In this document: positions 4,153 to 10,323 of the stretch, piece after piece
Position numbering within the stretch: the stretch's first letter is position 1
Layout of the letters: the number at the start of each line of letters is the position of its first letter
NCBI GenBank assembly: GCA_021797265.1
Contig: JAJZZZ010000035.1
Location: 1 to 12,417 of the forward strand
Direction: 5' to 3'
Origin: Thermoplasmata archaeon
GTDB lineage: Archaea; Thermoplasmatota; Thermoplasmata; Thermoplasmatales; Thermoplasmataceae
Length of the DNA stretch: 12,417 nt
Position numbers and translations under genes: made by a program
The notes under the pieces: model-generated
What the model saw: only the letters and a program-made list of their open reading frames with translations
Database searches by the model: none
Told to the model about the DNA's origin: nothing

Positions 4153-4542
4153 CTATTTTCTGCCTTTCTCCAGCTCTGCCCATTTTTTCTCCAGCTGAAG
4201 CTTTAGTGCCTCCGGCTTCTTCGCCTTTTCATCGGAAGACCTCAACTCCTCTGGTATTCTCAGGCCCTCCTGAACATCATATTTGAAATTGATTATAGAG
4301 GACTGGGAAAGTTTGTATTTCTTTGAAAGATCTGAAATTCTTCCGTCAATTGTCTGGAGTATATCTTTCATTGCGCCATATTCCATGTTCTCCTGGATAA
4401 TGCGCATGATGGTGTCCTTGAGGGATTCTCCATCTCTCTGCAACAGGCTTATGGCTAAAAATTCTGATTTTGTAAGCTCAAGAGAGTAAGTCTCCTGACC
4501 ATTATCTTCCTGATCCTCATCAGGTATTTCATCTTCGGGCAT
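4153..4542 (-). CDS. Unrecognised 129-residue protein with ribbon-helix-helix-like N-terminus; candidate ParR-like partner of the actin ATPase
   Basis: I do not recognise this protein by name. Residues 1-17 are a very acidic tail. Residues 19-53 read as a short strand (YSLELT), a helix, a turn at G38 and a second helix (GESLKDTIMRIIQEN). That is the beta-alpha-alpha pattern of ribbon-helix-helix DNA-binding proteins, including the G-E-S-x3-I-x-R-I-I signature seen in VapB/CopG-like proteins. Residues 69-93 (around LSKKYKLSQSSIINFK) could alternatively form a helix-turn-helix. The C-terminus (104-129) is charged and probably helical or coiled-coil. It starts at ATG 4542, 6 nt after an AGGATGA ribosome site (4549-4555), 71 nt downstream of the ParM-like actin gene in the same direction. 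ParR of type II plasmid partition is also a small ribbon-helix-helix protein encoded just after parM. That parallel is inference; the gene itself is clearly real. Confidence 0.8.
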   Translation of the reverse strand: MPEDEIPDEDQEDNGQETYSLELTKSEFLAISLLQRDGESLKDTIMRIIQENMEYGAMKDILQTIDGRISDLSKKYKLSQSSIINFKYDVQEGLRIPEELRSSDEKAKKPEALKLQLEKKWAELEKGRK

Positions 4543-4588
4543 TTTGGTTCATCCTAATCTATGGCGACCAGAATGCATACAGGAGACA

Positions 4589-4604
4589 TATAAAAAAATA
4601 TATG
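4589..4604 (-). promoter_or_regulatory. AT-rich element after the actin gene: T7 terminator and/or TATA box of the 129-residue gene
   Basis: Minus-strand CATATATTTTTTTATAT lies 10-25 nt past the actin stop codon. The run of seven T (4592-4598) is a typical archaeal oligo-T terminator. The same stretch can act as a TATA element: a start site near 4571 would give the 129-residue gene a short leader with its AGGATGA ribosome site. Both readings may hold, so actin and the small gene may be transcribed partly together and partly apart. Confidence 0.35.
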
Positions 4605-4613
4605 CTAACCAGG

Positions 4614-5594
4614 TCAGTTTGAAGACCTGGCTGCAGCATCTCTGTATCCCAGGGCATTGGCGAACTGAATATCCTCCTGCGGTATCTTCACCATCGCACC
4701 TGGAGCAAGTTTCTCTAGCCTGTCACCAATAAGGGATGAACCTCCACCTACAGGTATCAGGGCGGTTATTCTGTCCAGTTCCTCCCTGAGGTTCTCCCTA
4801 AGTTTGTCCAGGATCCTGTTAGCGAGGTTAGCCATTATAGGTTCAGAAACCTTTGGCCCCCCTACTTCACGCTGCTTGAAGAGAACTGTCTGGCTGATTG
4901 CTTCCCTTGCCACATCGTTCGGCACAATAAACCCGGTTTCCTTTGCGATGGCCTTTGAAATGCCAGATACGAGGTCACCCACTCCTGCCTGAATACTGAA
5001 TGACATTTCAACAACCGGCTCCATGTTCTTCAGGTTTACAGTAAGAACATCAGTCGTCCTTGAACCTATATCCACGACCACGCCGTATCCGTACTGTGCC
5101 TTTAGCATGCCTTTGTCCAGAAGGTACAGGGCTGCCCCTACTCCCTGGGGCCTCATTATCAGTTTGGTTATGTTGAATGTCCGTGTTTCGCCGGCCACTG
5201 ACTTTATGGTGAACTCCTTTCCCTGTAGGTATTCCTTTGCTGCATTCAGTTCATGTTCAAATGTACCAAGAGGAGTTCCGCTTCCCAGAACTACTTCGGC
5301 CTTGTTTCCGTCCTTTCCTGCGCCGCTCATCCATAGAGCACCAGCGAGTAGTGGCAGAGAATCAGGATCAGAAAGCCTTCCGTCTCCCTGTGGTTCCCTT
5401 ACACCTGCACCGGTTGCATCATCGCCGAAGAAGAACGGATCGCTGTCATTTATTGTGAGGATTGTAGAAGATCCTCCGATTCCCCAGTTCTTCGCCTCTG
5501 TAGCTGCCCATCTGGATGGAAATTTTGCTCTTCCAGAGTCTGGGCCCACAACTTTTGTGTCACCATATCCCAAGTCTACTCCCAATACTATCAA
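4614..5594 (-). CDS. Actin-like ATPase, ParM/Ta0583 family
   Basis: 326 residues. The protein strongly resembles the T. acidophilum actin homologue Ta0583, an ATP-binding, filament-forming protein structurally closest to plasmid ParM. Actin-fold motifs appear in order: phosphate-1 loop VDLGYGDTK at 6-14; the Ta0583-like blocks FPSRWA at 25-30 and GSGTPLGTF at 104-112; phosphate-2 loop DIGSRTTD at 175-182; adenosine motif PVGGGSSLIG at 281-290; and FANALGYRDAA near the end. The start is TTG at 5594: the codon just upstream is a stop, and a strong GAGGTGA site lies 4 nt before the TTG. Polymer-based DNA segregation or cytoskeletal function is an inference from the family. The gene after it encodes a small putative DNA-binding protein, and the region before it is rich in palindromes, as in parC-parM-parR loci. 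I see no sign of truncation. Confidence 0.93.
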   Translation of the reverse strand: MIVLGVDLGYGDTKVVGPDSGRAKFPSRWAATEAKNWGIGGSSTILTINDSDPFFFGDDATGAGVREPQGDGRLSDPDSLPLLAGALWMSGAGKDGNKAEVVLGSGTPLGTFEHELNAAKEYLQGKEFTIKSVAGETRTFNITKLIMRPQGVGAALYLLDKGMLKAQYGYGVVVDIGSRTTDVLTVNLKNMEPVVEMSFSIQAGVGDLVSGISKAIAKETGFIVPNDVAREAISQTVLFKQREVGGPKVSEPIMANLANRILDKLRENLREELDRITALIPVGGGSSLIGDRLEKLAPGAMVKIPQEDIQFANALGYRDAAARSSN

Positions 5595-5598
5595 TTAT

Positions 5599-5605
5599 TC
5601 ACCTC
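5599..5605 (-). promoter_or_regulatory. Strong Shine-Dalgarno site fixing the TTG start of the actin-like gene
   Basis: Minus-strand GAGGTGA is a long match to the archaeal 16S anti-SD and lies 4 nt before the TTG at 5594. No ATG or GTG is available upstream in frame, because TAA immediately precedes the TTG. Confidence 0.75.
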
Positions 5606-5612
5606 TCGTGAA

Positions 5613-5625
5613 AGCGTCAGACGCT
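5613..5625. repeat. 13-nt perfect palindrome upstream of the actin-like gene
   Basis: AGCGTC-A-GACGCT has six-base arms around a single central base. It lies 19-31 nt before the TTG start. In the actin transcript it could form a GC-rich hairpin just upstream of the ribosome site, or it could be a dimeric protein-binding site. The half-site AGCG/CGCT recurs in the palindrome at 5738-5749. Confidence 0.6.
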
Positions 5626-5655
5626 ACCACATTGTTTTCCCAGCCCTACACTTTT

Positions 5656-5688
5656 CATAGTGCATACTATGGTTTACACTGTGGTAAA
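5656..5688. repeat. Two adjacent inverted repeats in the actin-like gene leader
   Basis: CATAGT-gcat-ACTATG (5656-5671) is followed one base later by TTTAC-actgtg-GTAAA (5673-5688). In addition, GTTTACAC at 5672-5679 pairs perfectly with GTGTAAAC at 5703-5710, so the second element has two possible partners. If the TATA box at 5711-5720 is used, both would lie at the start of the actin mRNA leader. They could be operators, RNA structures or part of a centromere-like site. Confidence 0.5.
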
Positions 5689-5710
5689 GTATCCCATTGA
5701 TTGTGTAAAC

Positions 5711-5720
5711 TATATTTAAA
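5711..5720 (-). promoter_or_regulatory. Probable TATA box of the actin-like gene
   Basis: Minus-strand TTTAAATATA is the best TATA element upstream of the actin gene. A start near 5690 would give a leader of about 95 nt containing the palindromes and the GAGGTGA site. This is unlike the leaderless genes in this window and suggests leader-based or operator-based control. Confidence 0.45.
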
Positions 5721-5737
5721 TTTTTTCTATTTGACAA

Positions 5738-5749
5738 AGCGATTTCGCT
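5738..5749. repeat. 12-nt inverted repeat between the divergent promoters
   Basis: AGCGA-TT-TCGCT lies upstream of the actin TATA box and between the actin and prpD promoters. It shares the AGCG...CGCT half-sites of the palindrome at 5613-5625, but with a central gap of four bases instead of five. It could be a regulator site for either direction. Apart from this and the other elements listed here, I see no gene or RNA in 5595-5878. Confidence 0.4.
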
Positions 5750-5849
5750 ATCTAAAAACGGCTGAAAAACTGAATTTAATGAAAAATGAATCTTTTATAC
5801 ATTTTTCCGCATGTTACTTATTCTCATGACTTGTATCAGGTAGTGCCGA

Positions 5850-5859
5850 ATTAAATATT
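5850..5859 (+). promoter_or_regulatory. TATA-box promoter of the methylcitrate operon
   Basis: ATTAAATATT is centred about 25 nt before the ATG at 5879, so the prpD mRNA should be leaderless; no ribosome site is present there. A TACCACA element (5869-5875) sits between box and start codon and also occurs in the actin leader region. Confidence 0.55.
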
Positions 5860-5878
5860 CAAAAGTGATACCACAGAT

Positions 5879-7213
5879 ATGGAACCTTCTTTAGAAACAA
5901 TGTATAATCACATGAGGGATCTCAGGGAACATGGAGTCAGCGACAAAAGCAGAGATGAGATGAAGAAAAGAATCGCAGATTCCATAATAACAGCATATGG
6001 GGCCATGAACGCTGAACCTGTTCGTATAGCAAGATCAGCACTGCTGCCATCAAAGGGAAAAAGAAACGGGAGAATTTTTTTCAGCAAGGATGAGGCACCG
6101 GTGGATATAACCGCATTTATTAACGGCACCATGACAAGATACCTTGATTATAATGACACCTATCTGTCAAAGGAGGCAATGCACCCCTCTGACAACATCC
6201 CGCCTCTGATTTCACTTGCCCATAGCCTTGATCTCAATGGTGAGGATATTATCAGAGCAGCCAACATATCATATGATGTTGCTGCCAACCTCTCTGATGA
6301 ATCATCCATAAGGGATAGGGGTTGGGATCATGTAACTTACATATCAATTTCTTCAGCAGCTGGGCTTTCAGCGCTGCTCGACCTGGACGAAAAGCGATTT
6401 GAACATGCAATCAGCCTTTCCTTGAATAACAACATAAGCATGCGGCAGACAAGAGCCGGAGAACTGAGTATGTGGAAAGGGGCAACTACTGCAAATGCCT
6501 GCAGGAACAGTGTATTCGGCACTTTGCTTGCAGCAGACGGTTTTACCGGCCCTTCACCGGAATTCTCTGGAGAGATGGGCTTTTTCAAACAGGTATCAGG
6601 GCCAATGAACATAAATCCAAAAAAGGATGCTGTTCTAAAAACAATGATAAAGAATTATCCGGTTGAATATCATGCTATGAGTGCGGCAGAAGCTGCCTGT
6701 TCAATTCATGAAGAACTGAAAGGAGAAATCAAGTCTGTCAGTGTTGAAACATTCAAAGTTGCTAATGACATAATAATAAAGGACCCTGAGAAATTGAGGC
6801 CAAGAACGCGGGAAACTGCTGACCACAGCATGCCATATATTGTTGCCTATTCCCTTGTTTATGGATCCCCAGGCCCTGGATCCTATGAGCAGAAATACCT
6901 GAAAGACCCAAAGATACTCAATGTTATCGATCATTCAAAGTATGTTGTTACAGATAGGTTCAACAAAATGTATCCGGAATACCTGCCTGTGAAAATGGTG
7001 GTGGAAACATCTTCGGGCAAGTACGAAAGAGAGATGGATGTTCCTAAGGGCCATCACAGGAAACCATACACATGGGATGATCTCTTCGAGAAGGGAAGAA
7101 AGGTTATGGGTGAGGACAATTCAAAAATCCTGATGAATGTGACCAGAAGACTTGAAAAGATCAAGATAAAGGAATTCATGGATGTGATATCTGATGTCCA
7201 TTTTAAGGGATAA
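5879..7213 (+). CDS. prpD: 2-methylcitrate dehydratase, MmgE/PrpD family
   Basis: 444 residues, near the usual 450-490 of the family. It should dehydrate 2-methylcitrate to 2-methyl-cis-aconitate in the methylcitrate cycle. MmgE/PrpD landmarks are visible: YLDYNDTYLSKEAMHPSDN at 88-106, carrying the D-x-N-D-T and H-P-S-D blocks; the MWKGATTANACRN block at 198-210; ETADHSMPYIVAYSL at 312-326; and the C-terminal GHHRKPYTWDDL at 391-402. The start ATG has a TATA box about 25 nt upstream, indicating a leaderless mRNA and supporting this codon. It is the first gene of a tight prpD-prpB-prpC operon and overlaps prpB by 20 nt. MmgE/PrpD proteins also include other dehydratases, but the two partners make methylcitrate the best reading. 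Confidence 0.88.
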   Translation: MEPSLETMYNHMRDLREHGVSDKSRDEMKKRIADSIITAYGAMNAEPVRIARSALLPSKGKRNGRIFFSKDEAPVDITAFINGTMTRYLDYNDTYLSKEAMHPSDNIPPLISLAHSLDLNGEDIIRAANISYDVAANLSDESSIRDRGWDHVTYISISSAAGLSALLDLDEKRFEHAISLSLNNNISMRQTRAGELSMWKGATTANACRNSVFGTLLAADGFTGPSPEFSGEMGFFKQVSGPMNINPKKDAVLKTMIKNYPVEYHAMSAAEAACSIHEELKGEIKSVSVETFKVANDIIIKDPEKLRPRTRETADHSMPYIVAYSLVYGSPGPGSYEQKYLKDPKILNVIDHSKYVVTDRFNKMYPEYLPVKMVVETSSGKYEREMDVPKGHHRKPYTWDDLFEKGRKVMGEDNSKILMNVTRRLEKIKIKEFMDVISDVHFKG

Positions 7214-8096
7214 TATTAACGCGGGACCTTCCGGATTTAAAAAACTTCTCTCAGAAGGTTTTATAGAGGCAGCTGGTGTATTCAATGGAATGAGTGCACT
7301 TCTGGCACAGCAGGCCGGATTCAGGGCACTGTACCTCTCTGGGTCAGGAGTTGCAGGTGCGATGGGCCTTCCTGACCTCTCCATTACAACACTTTCTGAA
7401 GTTGCGGACGAAACCCGCAAAATAACATCGGTTTCTGGACTCCCACTTATTGTTGATGCAGACACCGGATTTGGAGAGGCAATAAACGTAATGAGAACTG
7501 TGCGGGTGCTGGAAGATGCGGGCGCAGCTGCATTACATCTGGAAGACCAGGTTCTCCCAAAGAGATGCGGTCACCTCAACGGAAAGAAAGTGGTGGAGAT
7601 GGAGGAGATGGGAAAGAAGATAATGACGGCAATAGCCTCCAGGCACAATCCTGATTTCATGATCATAGCGAGGACTGATGCCAGGTCCGTGAACGGACTG
7701 GACGATGCCATTGAGAGAGCACTTTACTACAGGAAGTGCGGCGCTGACATGATATTCACTGAAGCACTGGAATCAGCTGAGGAATTCCTGGAATTTTCAT
7801 CAAAGGTTAAAACCCCTCTGCTTGCAAATATGACAGAGTTTGGAAAAAGCCCTCTTCTTTCGAGTTCAGAACTGAAAGACCTGGGTTACAGTGCTGTCAT
7901 ATTCCCACTTACAGGATTCAGAGTAGCTCTCAAATCCCTGCAAAAAACCTACGAGACTCTTATTAGGGAGGGAACTCAGAGAACCTTTATCGATGACCTG
8001 ATGACAAGAAGGCAGTTTTATGAGGTCATTGGCTATGATGAATATGAAAAGGACGATAGAGATATATTCAATATGAAAGGTGAAAAAGATGACTGA
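7194..8096 (+). CDS. prpB: 2-methylisocitrate lyase
   Basis: 300 residues, close to the usual 290-300 of the isocitrate lyase/PEP mutase superfamily lyases. It should split 2-methylisocitrate into pyruvate and succinate. Visible motifs are YLSGSG at 47-52, metal-site DADTGFG at 88-94, LEDQ at 116-119, the catalytic signature PKRCGH at 122-127 with the lyase-specific cysteine C125, ARTDAR at 159-164, TEALES near 189-194, and NMTEFG at 212-217. The KRCGH loop separates it from PEP mutase and oxaloacetate hydrolase relatives and points to (methyl)isocitrate lyase. True isocitrate lyases are much longer. The ATG lies inside the end of prpD and has no ribosome site, so translation is probably coupled. 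The end overlaps prpC by 8 nt. Confidence 0.92.
   Translation: MSILRDNINAGPSGFKKLLSEGFIEAAGVFNGMSALLAQQAGFRALYLSGSGVAGAMGLPDLSITTLSEVADETRKITSVSGLPLIVDADTGFGEAINVMRTVRVLEDAGAAALHLEDQVLPKRCGHLNGKKVVEMEEMGKKIMTAIASRHNPDFMIIARTDARSVNGLDDAIERALYYRKCGADMIFTEALESAEEFLEFSSKVKTPLLANMTEFGKSPLLSSSELKDLGYSAVIFPLTGFRVALKSLQKTYETLIREGTQRTFIDDLMTRRQFYEVIGYDEYEKDDRDIFNMKGEKDD
8078..8083 (+). promoter_or_regulatory. Shine-Dalgarno site of the citrate/methylcitrate synthase gene
   Basis: AGGTGA lies 5 nt before ATG 8089 and within the end of prpB. It selects the ATG over the in-frame GTG at 8080, which is part of the site itself. Confidence 0.7.
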
Positions 8097-9153
8097 AATA
8101 AGTGTTCCAAAGGGACTTGTTGGAGTTATAGTTGACAAAACTGCAATATGCACTACTGATGCTGAAGGAAACCTTGTCTACAGAGGATATAAGACGGTAG
8201 ATCTGGTCAATAAGAAAACCTTCGAAGAGGTTGCATACCTTGTAGTACATGGTGATCTCCCGAACAGCAATCAGCTTAAGGAGTTCAATGAAATGCTGGT
8301 AAATAGCGGAGAAATAGACTCAAGGGTACTGAAGATTATTGATCTTCTTAAGGAGAAAGATATAATGAAGAACCTTCGATCAATGATATCCCTGTATCCA
8401 TACAAATCTGCTGATCCTGAACATTTCCTGCCAGAAATCATCGCTAAGGTTCCCGGCATAATAGCTCATTCATATGCAGCGGAAACTGGTAAATCTGTTG
8501 GCAGGTCTGAAGCTTCCAGCTACAGCGGAAGGTTCTACCAGATGATTACCGGAAATACTGACGCCAGAAAATCGCAGTTCCTTTCAAAACTGATGATTCT
8601 TTACATGGAGCATGAGTTCAACGCATCCACTTTTGTACTCAGGGTAGCGGCATCAACACTTACTGATCCAGCTTCAGCATTCACCAGTGCACTGGGAACT
8701 CTAAAGGGGCCTCTCCATGGCGGTGCAAATGCCGAGATACTTGACTTCTTCAAAAGCTTCAGGAACGAGGATGAGGCCGTAAAATTTGTTGATGCACAGC
8801 TTGAATCCGGGAAGAAGGTAATGGGCTTTGGACACAGAGTTTACAAACAGAAGGATCCGCGTGCACAGCTCGTGAAACAGTTAATGAAAGAGCTGAACCC
8901 TGACTCTAAGGAACTGAGAATAGCAGAAGCCATCGAGGCTCGAGTTTGGGAGAAAAAGCATCTCCCCGCCAATCTTGATTTCTATGCTGCAATTCTTATG
9001 GATCAGCTTGGAATTCCTCAGGATCTCTATACTGCCATTTTTGCAGCAGCCAGAGTGTTTGGATGGTGGGCGCACTACGAAGAACAGCTGAGCGATAACA
9101 AGCTGATAAGACCTTCTTCTGAATATGTGGGCCCAAAAGACAGGGTTCTCTGA
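8089..9153 (+). CDS. prpC: 2-methylcitrate synthase / citrate synthase
   Basis: 354 residues. It should condense propionyl-CoA (and probably acetyl-CoA) with oxaloacetate. The citrate synthase catalytic residues are all present: H210 in GPLHGGAN, H249 in MGFGHRVYK and D297 in NLDFYAA. A further conserved histidine, H175, is in MEHEFNAST, and the substrate-binding arginines are R250, R322 and R341 (in IRPSSEYVGP). Its operon with prpD and prpB points to methylcitrate synthase. From memory, T. acidophilum also has a clearly different citrate synthase, so a specialised paralogue is reasonable, but dual activity is common in archaea. The start is ATG 8089, 5 nt after AGGTGA, overlapping prpB by 8 nt. 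The stop codon lies 2 nt from the convergent JAMM gene. No prpE (propionyl-CoA synthetase) follows. Confidence 0.88.
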   Translation: MTEISVPKGLVGVIVDKTAICTTDAEGNLVYRGYKTVDLVNKKTFEEVAYLVVHGDLPNSNQLKEFNEMLVNSGEIDSRVLKIIDLLKEKDIMKNLRSMISLYPYKSADPEHFLPEIIAKVPGIIAHSYAAETGKSVGRSEASSYSGRFYQMITGNTDARKSQFLSKLMILYMEHEFNASTFVLRVAASTLTDPASAFTSALGTLKGPLHGGANAEILDFFKSFRNEDEAVKFVDAQLESGKKVMGFGHRVYKQKDPRAQLVKQLMKELNPDSKELRIAEAIEARVWEKKHLPANLDFYAAILMDQLGIPQDLYTAIFAAARVFGWWAHYEEQLSDNKLIRPSSEYVGPKDRVL

Positions 9154-9155
9154 AT

Positions 9156-9518
9156 TCAGAGAACTTTCAGATCTATTTTTTCAGATTTTCTATTGAAAGC
9201 CTGAAAGTCAGAAATTCTGTAAGGGCTTGCCACAATTATGTGTATCTGCCCAGTATTGGAGAACATTGAAACGTCAGCATCCGAAGGTAATGCTACCCCT
9301 GAAGGATGTGAATGCACACTCCCAACTACAGAAAAATCGATTCCCTTATGGTAGAGGTTGAATATTGTGTGATGGTCTCCCTGTACAGTACCAGGGAGCA
9401 TAAGTATCTCATAGATTATCTCATGCTCTGCCTTCAGAAAGGCCCCAAACTCCCTTGGATAACTGTCTTTTGAGGCTTCCATTATCATTTTAAGTGTACG
9501 GAGCCTAATTGACCACAT
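9156..9518 (-). CDS. JAMM/MPN+ metalloprotease (Mov34-like)
   Basis: 120 residues, typical of short archaeal and bacterial JAMM proteins. All zinc and catalytic residues of the motif E-xn-H-S-H-P-x6-S-x2-D are visible: E23, H69, H71, S79 and D82, in GSVHSHPSG and PSDAD. The N-terminal block MWSIR...ASKDSYPREFGAFL matches archaeal Mov34 proteins and supports this ATG, although it overlaps the NAD kinase end by 14 nt. Characterised archaeal JAMM enzymes cleave isopeptide or linear bonds of ubiquitin-like SAMP proteins. Whether this one acts on SAMP-like modifiers or on other peptides is inferred. It is the last gene of a phosphatase - NAD kinase - JAMM cluster downstream of rpoD. Confidence 0.88.
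   Translation of the reverse strand: MWSIRLRTLKMIMEASKDSYPREFGAFLKAEHEIIYEILMLPGTVQGDHHTIFNLYHKGIDFSVVGSVHSHPSGVALPSDADVSMFSNTGQIHIIVASPYRISDFQAFNRKSEKIDLKVL
9174..9182 (+). terminator. Possible oligo-T terminator of the methylcitrate operon
   Basis: Six T on the plus strand (9176-9181) lie 22 nt after the prpC stop, inside the 3' end of the convergent JAMM gene. Archaeal transcription usually ends at short oligo-T runs, and the two genes leave only 2 nt of intergenic space, so termination must occur within the opposing gene. Confidence 0.35.
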
Positions 9519-10323
9519 TTCTTATCAGCTTCTCCCTGATTCTCTCATAGAATGAGTTTCTGAAAGTCACGAATCGAGCCCTTTCCGGAGATACAGTGAT
9601 CCTTATGTCGTCATTCTCGTCTACAGCGAACTGCTCCTGGCCATCAACAATAAGGTCACAGGATTGCTTCTTTCCGAAGATCCTGAGATTTATCTCCTGG
9701 GAGCTTGGTATTACAAGGGGCCTGCTTCTGGACCTGAAAGGTGCCAGATACGTTACAACCATGGCATCAAGGGTTGGATAAAGAATTGGCCCACCGGCAC
9801 TGAATGAGTATGAGGTTGAACCTATTGGTGTTGCAACTATCACACCATCGGATGTTGTACTGTCAAAAAAAGTCCCATCTACAAAAAGCCTGAACTTCCT
9901 GATCTTGGCTATTTTACTGGAATGAAGTACCACCTCATTGGTCGAGTCGATGATCTGTGTTCCATTTATGGTCAATCTGAGCTTCATGGTCTCCTCCACC
10001 TTGTAGTTCCCCTTTATCAACTTGTAAACTGAGGACTCCACCTCTCCGATCTCAACCTCTGAGAGGAACCCCAGGCTTCCCATGTTTATCCCGAGGACCG
10101 GCCCTTTTGCGAGCTGCAGTGACCTGAGGACAGAGCCGTCTCCGCCTACAGTTATAAGAATGTCGGCTTCCATTGATTCTATGCTGTTACCCTTTCTGTT
10201 GAGCATCCTGGCTGCTTCCCTGTCATATATGACTTCCCAGTCAGCAGGAAGTATCTCTACAATCCTTCGGACTATATTTGCACATCTTGTGCAGTCCTTT
10301 CTTACGATAAAACCTATCTTCAT
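9505..10323 (-). CDS. nadK: ATP-NAD kinase
   Basis: 272 residues, normal for NAD kinase. It phosphorylates NAD+ (or NADH) to NADP(H). The signature GGDGS is at 60-64, followed by NMGSLGFLSE at 80-89, the NE dipeptide at 129-130, the second conserved region SDGVIVATP at 158-166, and the glycine-rich GSTSYSFSAGGPI at 168-180. Most family members have TPTGSTAYS; here it is TPIGSTSYS, a mild variation. The ATG overlaps the TGA of the upstream phosphatase gene in an ATGA unit, with a GGAGG ribosome site 7 nt before it (10331-10335). Co-translation with the phosphatase is therefore very likely. The 3' end overlaps the JAMM gene by 14 nt. Confidence 0.94.
   Translation of the reverse strand: MKIGFIVRKDCTRCANIVRRIVEILPADWEVIYDREAARMLNRKGNSIESMEADILITVGGDGSVLRSLQLAKGPVLGINMGSLGFLSEVEIGEVESSVYKLIKGNYKVEETMKLRLTINGTQIIDSTNEVVLHSSKIAKIRKFRLFVDGTFFDSTTSDGVIVATPIGSTSYSFSAGGPILYPTLDAMVVTYLAPFRSRSRPLVIPSSQEINLRIFGKKQSCDLIVDGQEQFAVDENDDIRITVSPERARFVTFRNSFYERIREKLIRNVVN

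Follow-up and report, generated by a model that had tools for sequence, protein, structure and literature searches.

Introduction

Ta0583, an actin of Thermoplasma acidophilum whose crystal structure was reportedly published in 2006 and whose filament biochemistry is said to date from 2007, and the ParM–ParR systems of bacteria are the closest described counterparts of the locus analysed here. In the passages concerned, Ta0583 is presented as the structure nearest to pSK41 ParM (PMC4911067) and is credited by citation with a role in chromosome separation and plasmid partitioning (PMC10354927), the latter passages making no mention of a partner. As for bacterial chromosomes, part of a recent study describes a ParR that depolymerises its own ParM and also binds local parC (PMC12270681). 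We have now analysed a 12,417-nucleotide stretch from a Thermoplasmata archaeon (contig JAJZZZ010000035.1; hereafter the window), in which a Ta0583-type actin gene is followed by a gene for a 129-residue protein, the partner. An initial annotation had read this locus as a captured type II partition system with palindrome-rich upstream DNA, a ParM-like actin and a ParR-like adaptor. The reading we favour, to which we give a probability of about 0.57, is that these genes form a two-gene archaeal chromosomal system working like ParM–ParR, in which the partner couples actin filaments to cargo bound by a ribbon-helix-helix (RHH) domain. We found no ParR partner described for Ta0583 in the literature searched, in agreement with the initial annotation; most subscription journals lay outside that search and priority is unproven.

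Results

The actin and its partner

The actin gene, preceded by a Shine-Dalgarno sequence read directly from the DNA (GAGAGGTG), encodes a protein matching the Pfam families ALP_N (5e-30) and MreB-like_C (1e-45). It aligns with the solved Ta0583 structure (2fsj) at E 3.5e-133, and the T. acidophilum locus encodes an actin with which it shares 61% identity across 325 aa; judged by sequence, it is the Ta0583 orthologue. DLGYGDTK, VDIGSRTTD and PVGGGSSLIG are what we take to be its phosphate- and adenosine-type motifs, in keeping with the actin-like ATPase initially annotated. After Ta0583, the nearest solved structures are ParMs, which places the protein among actins of the ParM type.

The partner gene lies on the same strand 71 nt behind the actin, as first described, and the gap is identical in the nearest relative. 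Its product belongs to no family above cut-off in Pfam or NCBIfam (matches to GreA_GreB_N and Mga, at E 0.01–0.02 and under cut-off, were dismissed as chance), has no convincing match among PHROGs (the window's own protein reaching E 0.22 at best) and no significant sequence relative among proteins of known structure. Nor is the cut-off of RHH_1 (PF01402) reached: two of 29 family members appear among the matches listed, with a best E of 0.26. Profile comparison, in contrast to these negatives, sets the N-terminal β-α-α of the partner in register with canonical RHH profiles at probability 60, a score that none of 100 shuffles reaches, and the N-terminal part alone gives probability 80. The β-α-α N-terminus of the initial annotation thus holds by profile comparison and more weakly by structure models, whose structural matches are weak and include 1xrx, presumably SeqA-N. 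With the two models, Foldseek returned nothing with E <0.001, and the absence of ParR among the matches listed is uninformative either way. The predicted fold includes a unit of DNA-binding type, as had been anticipated.

Beyond this N-terminal RHH, the partner continues as a long helix, which a variable linker joins to a C-terminal helix (residues 110–127 in the model) with an invariant E..W core. E118 and W121 are invariant in 20/20 and 44/44 sequences of two alignments, in which this helix holds two of three and three of nine invariant residues, respectively. Together with the co-inheritance described below, this anatomy supports the predicted identity of the partner as a ParR-like adaptor, which was half of the initial proposal; the other half, a parC-like centromere of palindromes or iterons upstream, was not supported, the palindromes being at chance level and repeats absent. 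The 102-aa T. acidophilum partner (P0034) is labelled "hypothetical membrane protein" in one source, and its sequence resembles a soluble RHH protein.

Co-inheritance of the two genes

Across 117 genomes of the order, 51 of them at least 90% complete, the actin is present in 37 and in 23 of the 51, spanning 11 genera. The partner adjoins it in 28 of the 37 (26 by script filter, G072 by eye and G098 from the open reading frame (ORF) list, the last two both matched by the family profile), so that the conservation across genera that the initial annotation had proposed to survey is borne out. Partner length ranges from 102 aa in Thermoplasma to 237 aa in group g3; as a lone query the window's sequence matches 17 genomes, and neighbourhoods show a small same-strand gene in many more. 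The family profile gives 30 strong matches (E <1e-13) across 29 genomes, every one adjoining an actin by coordinates except that of G094, whose contig ends at the partner; in the genomes searched it has no strong match away from actin loci. ASS_A1 carries two actin–partner pairs, and at the Ta0583 locus of T. acidophilum itself (G099) a 102-aa partner lies 7 nt downstream of the actin.

Both genes are narrowly distributed. An actin profile run over a 400-genome sample of the class has 33 matches (E up to 1e-20), all in one family, f1. Three successive protein database queries returned 19, 46 and 31 relatives of the partner, the named ones belonging to Thermoplasma, other Thermoplasmata or uncultured archaea; by these searches the partner family is unnamed and, within the data covered, confined to the same archaeal family. 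Searches of viral, plasmid and phage collections yielded no partner, and viral contigs yielded no actin of the Ta0583 kind. Four weak orphan matches to the partner profile (E 0.0017–0.0065; G093, G037, G038 and G010) complete the picture: those of G037 and G038 lie inside 816- and 817-aa frames, and that of G093 (L118 137-747, E 0.0017), the best outside actin loci, corresponds to a gene for 71 aa that is RHH antitoxin-like and overlaps one of PIN type (names assigned by eye).

Actins without a partner

The nine actin-bearing genomes that lack a partner are all those of groups g2 and g5 (Ferroplasma/Acidiplasma-type). Two of their actins are broken (a remnant in G064, pieces in G070), and that of G067 is an intact 323-residue ORF; among the 28 partner-bearing genomes, a broken actin occurs once, in the 50% complete Thermogymnomonas genome G098. 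We compared 35 intact actins from 34 genomes, 28 sequences with a partner and seven without. Exactly two sites are invariant in 28/28 of the former and changed in 7/7 of the latter: D319, replaced by I or L, and R323, replaced by E, G or Q. These residues are one turn apart near the actin C terminus, and both are retained in the second ASS_A1 actin and the Thermogymnomonas fragment, which have partners. Presumably, as in other actin structures, this C-terminal helix borders the IA/IIA subdomain groove, and D319/R323 are a possible docking site for the partner.

Upstream and intergenic DNA

The region 5595–5878, initially described as palindrome-rich, contains five palindromes of hairpin type, counting arms of 5 or longer and loops of 10 or less, which is at chance level: 1000 dinucleotide shuffles give 3.7 ± 2.0, and 304 of them reach five. 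One palindrome, AGCGTCAGACGCT, is no longer intact even in the nearest relative. What relatives keep, in an alignment inspected by eye (three g1 and ten g9/g17 sequences), is the core promoter with 25–30 nt after its TATA-like box. The six genomes checked carry this block almost in single copy: no dispersed copy was convincing and extra matches have 3 mismatches (G001 C73:5072, inside a 409-aa ORF; G105 C1:1658625), while in G084 the pattern did not pick up the actin promoter itself. Because it is near single copy, the conserved block would suit an operator or plain promoter, not a centromere array.

This bears on the possibility that the locus is a plasmid ParMRC that was captured whole and recently, its parC lying in 5595–5878. 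The gene order does resemble parC-parM-parR and plasmid ParMs are nearest to the actin after Ta0583, but such an origin is very improbable in view of the lack of both iterons and excess palindromes upstream, an actin spread over 11 genera of a single archaeal family (class sample), the mere 25–29% identity between the window actin and the ParMs of the 20 plasmid records found, the failure to find the partner in plasmids or phages, and housekeeping-type flanking genes. Capture as such, which the initial annotation had also proposed, is possible given the actin's nearness to ParMs, a relationship touched on in part of an earlier study (PMC2651865). Any capture was probably old, because the actin is confined to one family in the class sample, the partner was absent from the viral, plasmid and phage collections searched, and no actin of this kind turned up in viral contigs.

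A stem that can form over the partner's Shine-Dalgarno is of the CATCCTT/AAGGATG type in 10/10 g9/g17 loci and has a G-U version in 3/3 g1 loci (related loci L003–L012 and L015–L017), and three of four g3 loci keep the same pairing with a different sequence. Between 116 and 392 of 5000 shuffles reach the match in 10 of the 11 loci tested, and 4098 do so in the eleventh (L014); in seven other window genes, Shine-Dalgarno pairing amounts to 4–5 of 7 pairs. The stem possibly exerts translational control of the partner. Given this hint of dosage control, an RHH-type N terminus and a conserved promoter block, the partner could serve only to autoregulate transcription of the actin operon and never touch the actin protein. 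We find this quite improbable, however, since its C-terminal helix is conserved as strongly as the RHH and two otherwise invariant actin residues are altered where the partner is lost.

Chromosomal setting

The gene content of the window, with EF-1B and a methylcitrate-type set, assigns it to the chromosome of an archaeon in the Thermoplasma family; genes for S11, subunit D of RNA polymerase and an NAD-kinase-like protein are presumably also present (names assigned by eye). The nearest genome, G001, shares 75% of the window's sampled 31-mers. EF-1B and citrate-synthase-type flanks, and relatives' contigs of up to 2.2 Mb, match the chromosomal location first proposed rather than a low-copy plasmid. 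Divergent from the actin, PrpD-, PrpB- and methylcitrate/citrate-synthase-type genes stand in a row (5879–9153, plus strand; by eye), the first having a TATA-like box near enough to its ATG for a leaderless message. Beyond them, a gene for a small JAB/JAMM-domain protein that resembles haloarchaeal desampylase below cut-off (9156–9518, minus strand) overlaps the end of the preceding NAD-kinase-like gene (9505–10323; name by eye). The features of the actin–partner locus are listed in Table 1.

Table 1. Features of the actin–partner locus, in window coordinates
Feature	Position	Strand	Basis and remarks
Ta0583-type actin-like ATPase	4614-5594	-	326 aa, TTG start
ParR-like partner, 129 aa	4153-4542	-	ORF, neighbourhood, family profile
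RHH part of partner, residues 18-55	4378-4491	-	Profile comparison and structure models
Predicted long helix of partner, residues 53-91, possible coiled coil	4270-4386	-	Model; pLDDT drops from 84 to about 51 along the helix
C-terminal motif LKLQLEKKW of partner, residues 113-121, proposed actin-binding helix	4180-4206	-	Alignments and model
Actin C-terminal helix D319..R323, proposed partner docking site	4626-4640	-	Actin alignment
Actin-partner intergenic region, 71 nt	4543-4613	-	Arms 4550-4556/4569-4575, able to form a stem across the partner's Shine-Dalgarno
Actin core promoter	TATA-like box about 5711-5722; conserved 22-nt block 5689-5710	-	Alignment; candidate operator
Poorly conserved leader before actin start	5595-5688	.	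Alignment; no parC-like repeats

Discussion

How might a ParM–ParR-like system of this kind work? The window actin, as a Ta0583-type protein, would form ATP-driven filaments, and the partner would dimerise via its N-terminal RHH and hold DNA—its own promoter at least, perhaps other sites or another cargo—which would allow it to autoregulate the actin–partner operon. A helical or flexible stalk may then reach the actin, where the C-terminal helix of LxxxLExxW type would dock in the groove near D319/R323, so that the cargo held by the RHH could be linked to filament ends and also control them, and force could be exerted on DNA. A more specific version, in which the RHH dimer and LExxW tail couple Ta0583 filaments to the chromosome at dispersed or promoter-type sites without a centromere array, by docking on the actin C-terminal helix, in a long-inherited DNA-positioning machine of the Thermoplasma family, is one that we put forward only tentatively and would not bet on.

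Several observations weigh against a ParM–ParR-like coupling role. First, the strand positions that face DNA in canonical RHH proteins correspond to T18, S20 and E22 of the partner, which are non-basic and vary between genera; its RHH domain has a charge of -4, compared with a median of -2 in relatives' canonical RHH domains; and 5595–5878 contains no exact direct 8-mer repeat and no tandem repeat, only short imperfect pairs. A non-basic strand, an acidic domain and upstream DNA free of centromere-like repeats would rather suit an arcadin-2-like depolymeriser or sequesterer of actin, with an RHH that serves only to dimerise and a role in cell shape, motility or division instead of DNA. SeqA-N is an RHH that only dimerises, and 1xrx among the structural matches is presumably that protein; a conserved C-terminal Trp helix after a variable linker is found in arcadin-2 too. 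RHH domains of the partner's kind mostly bind DNA, however, and this, the antitoxin-like nature of the gene in G093 and the conserved block at the actin promoter make a purely actin-directed role unlikely in our view. Depolymerisation by a bacterial chromosomal ParR also speaks for such a role, but because that ParR, as described in part of the study, depolymerises its ParM and also binds parC, being an adaptor and being a depolymeriser need not be mutually exclusive (PMC12270681).

Second, a core segregation role fits poorly with the absence of the actin from 80/117 genomes of the order and 28/51 good ones, and linkage to the replication gene Cdc6 is not constant. Measured by subtraction of coordinates from the stronger Cdc6 match, on chromosomes assumed to be circular, the distance is ~54 kb in T. 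acidophilum, ~140 kb in T. volcanium, ~94 and ~101 kb in two g5 genomes, ~452 kb for G075 copy 1, ~727 kb in G045, ~902 kb in G105 and ~578 kb for the broken G070 copy; each genome has a second, weaker Cdc6 match, that of G075 being ~16 kb from its second actin. Substitution for ParA or SMC is not indicated either. SMC-type ORFs (1149–1192 aa) occur in 10/10 genomes tested, including the actin-less G049, and a strong ParA-like AAA_31 (E <1e-40) in seven, with only weaker matches in T. acidophilum, G045 and G007. More than half of the order's good genomes lack the pair, so that an essential segregation role is unproven.

Third, the number of sites private to partnerless actins is not unusual: the same rule gives three in g16, two in g6 and none in g3, g7 or g1+g9+g17. 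What sets D319/R323 apart is that they lie close together and that their replacements are radical and varied, whereas g16 and g6 each show uniform, for the most part mild, replacements. In a second test, with six of the seven partnerless actins (without G067) and conservation defined as at least 27 of the 28 partner-bearing sequences, complete change affects four of 129 conserved sites (R323, D319, V173I and R138K/Q), compared with 17 in g16, 11 in g6, six in g3, four in g7 and one in g17. Residues 312–326, which hold nine of the conserved sites, include two of these four (hypergeometric 0.024, a post hoc value). The tree separates two g2 rows, but a single partnerless clade is not rejected (approximately unbiased test, p 0.125); we therefore do not count partner loss as two independent events, and the partnerless group may represent one.

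The pair supplies Ta0583 with a candidate for its adaptor, a motif predicted to dock and a pair of actin residues to mutate, which makes the function of this protein directly testable. Should the system indeed move DNA, the reach of actin-driven segregation would include archaeal chromosomes, in parallel to the bacterial ParMR of 2025.

Comparison with known systems places the locus as follows. Ta0583 of T. acidophilum (2fsj, 2fsk, 2fsn) is an orthologue with its own partner gene beside it. Plasmid type II ParMRC (R1, pSK41) shares the parM-parR order, a ParM-type actin and an RHH with a C-terminal tail, and a small RHH protein lies beside the actin here too, by profile and with weak structural matches; the window pair differs in lacking parC repeats, in being off a plasmid and in having a partner unrecognisable by sequence. 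Among other plasmid loci, conjugative plasmids of the acidophilic bacterium Sulfobacillus, whose ParM is ~26% identical to the window actin, carry a 93-aa RHH-like gene with a differing C terminus downstream of ParM (L085 4121-4402, L086 4133-4414). A C. difficile plasmid encodes a 171-aa product downstream of ParM (L087 2488-3003) with an RHH-like stretch at its C-terminal end (by eye), the reverse of the archaeal layout. The crenactin–arcadin-2 system, as far as the relevant part of its description goes, likewise joins an archaeal actin to a co-encoded protein whose C-terminal Trp helix is conserved and follows a variable linker, but arcadin-2 belongs to a multi-gene arcade cluster and its actin to a different clade (PMC5173319). 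We saw no other constant downstream neighbour of the actin in the ORF lists, no search with arcadin profiles having been made. The locus also comes close to the chromosomal ParMR (cParMR) of Desulfitobacterium and Clostridium (J Biol Chem 2025, PMC12270681), described, in the part concerned, as a chromosomal ParM-type actin with an adjacent, divergent small protein of predicted RHH fold. The window pair has this same combination, the described cases being bacterial, and differs in being archaeal, in having a Ta0583-clade actin and a C-terminal LExxW-type helix, and in that we found no repeat-type parC. On our analysis, the system is best read as an archaeal variant of bacterial chromosomal ParMR.
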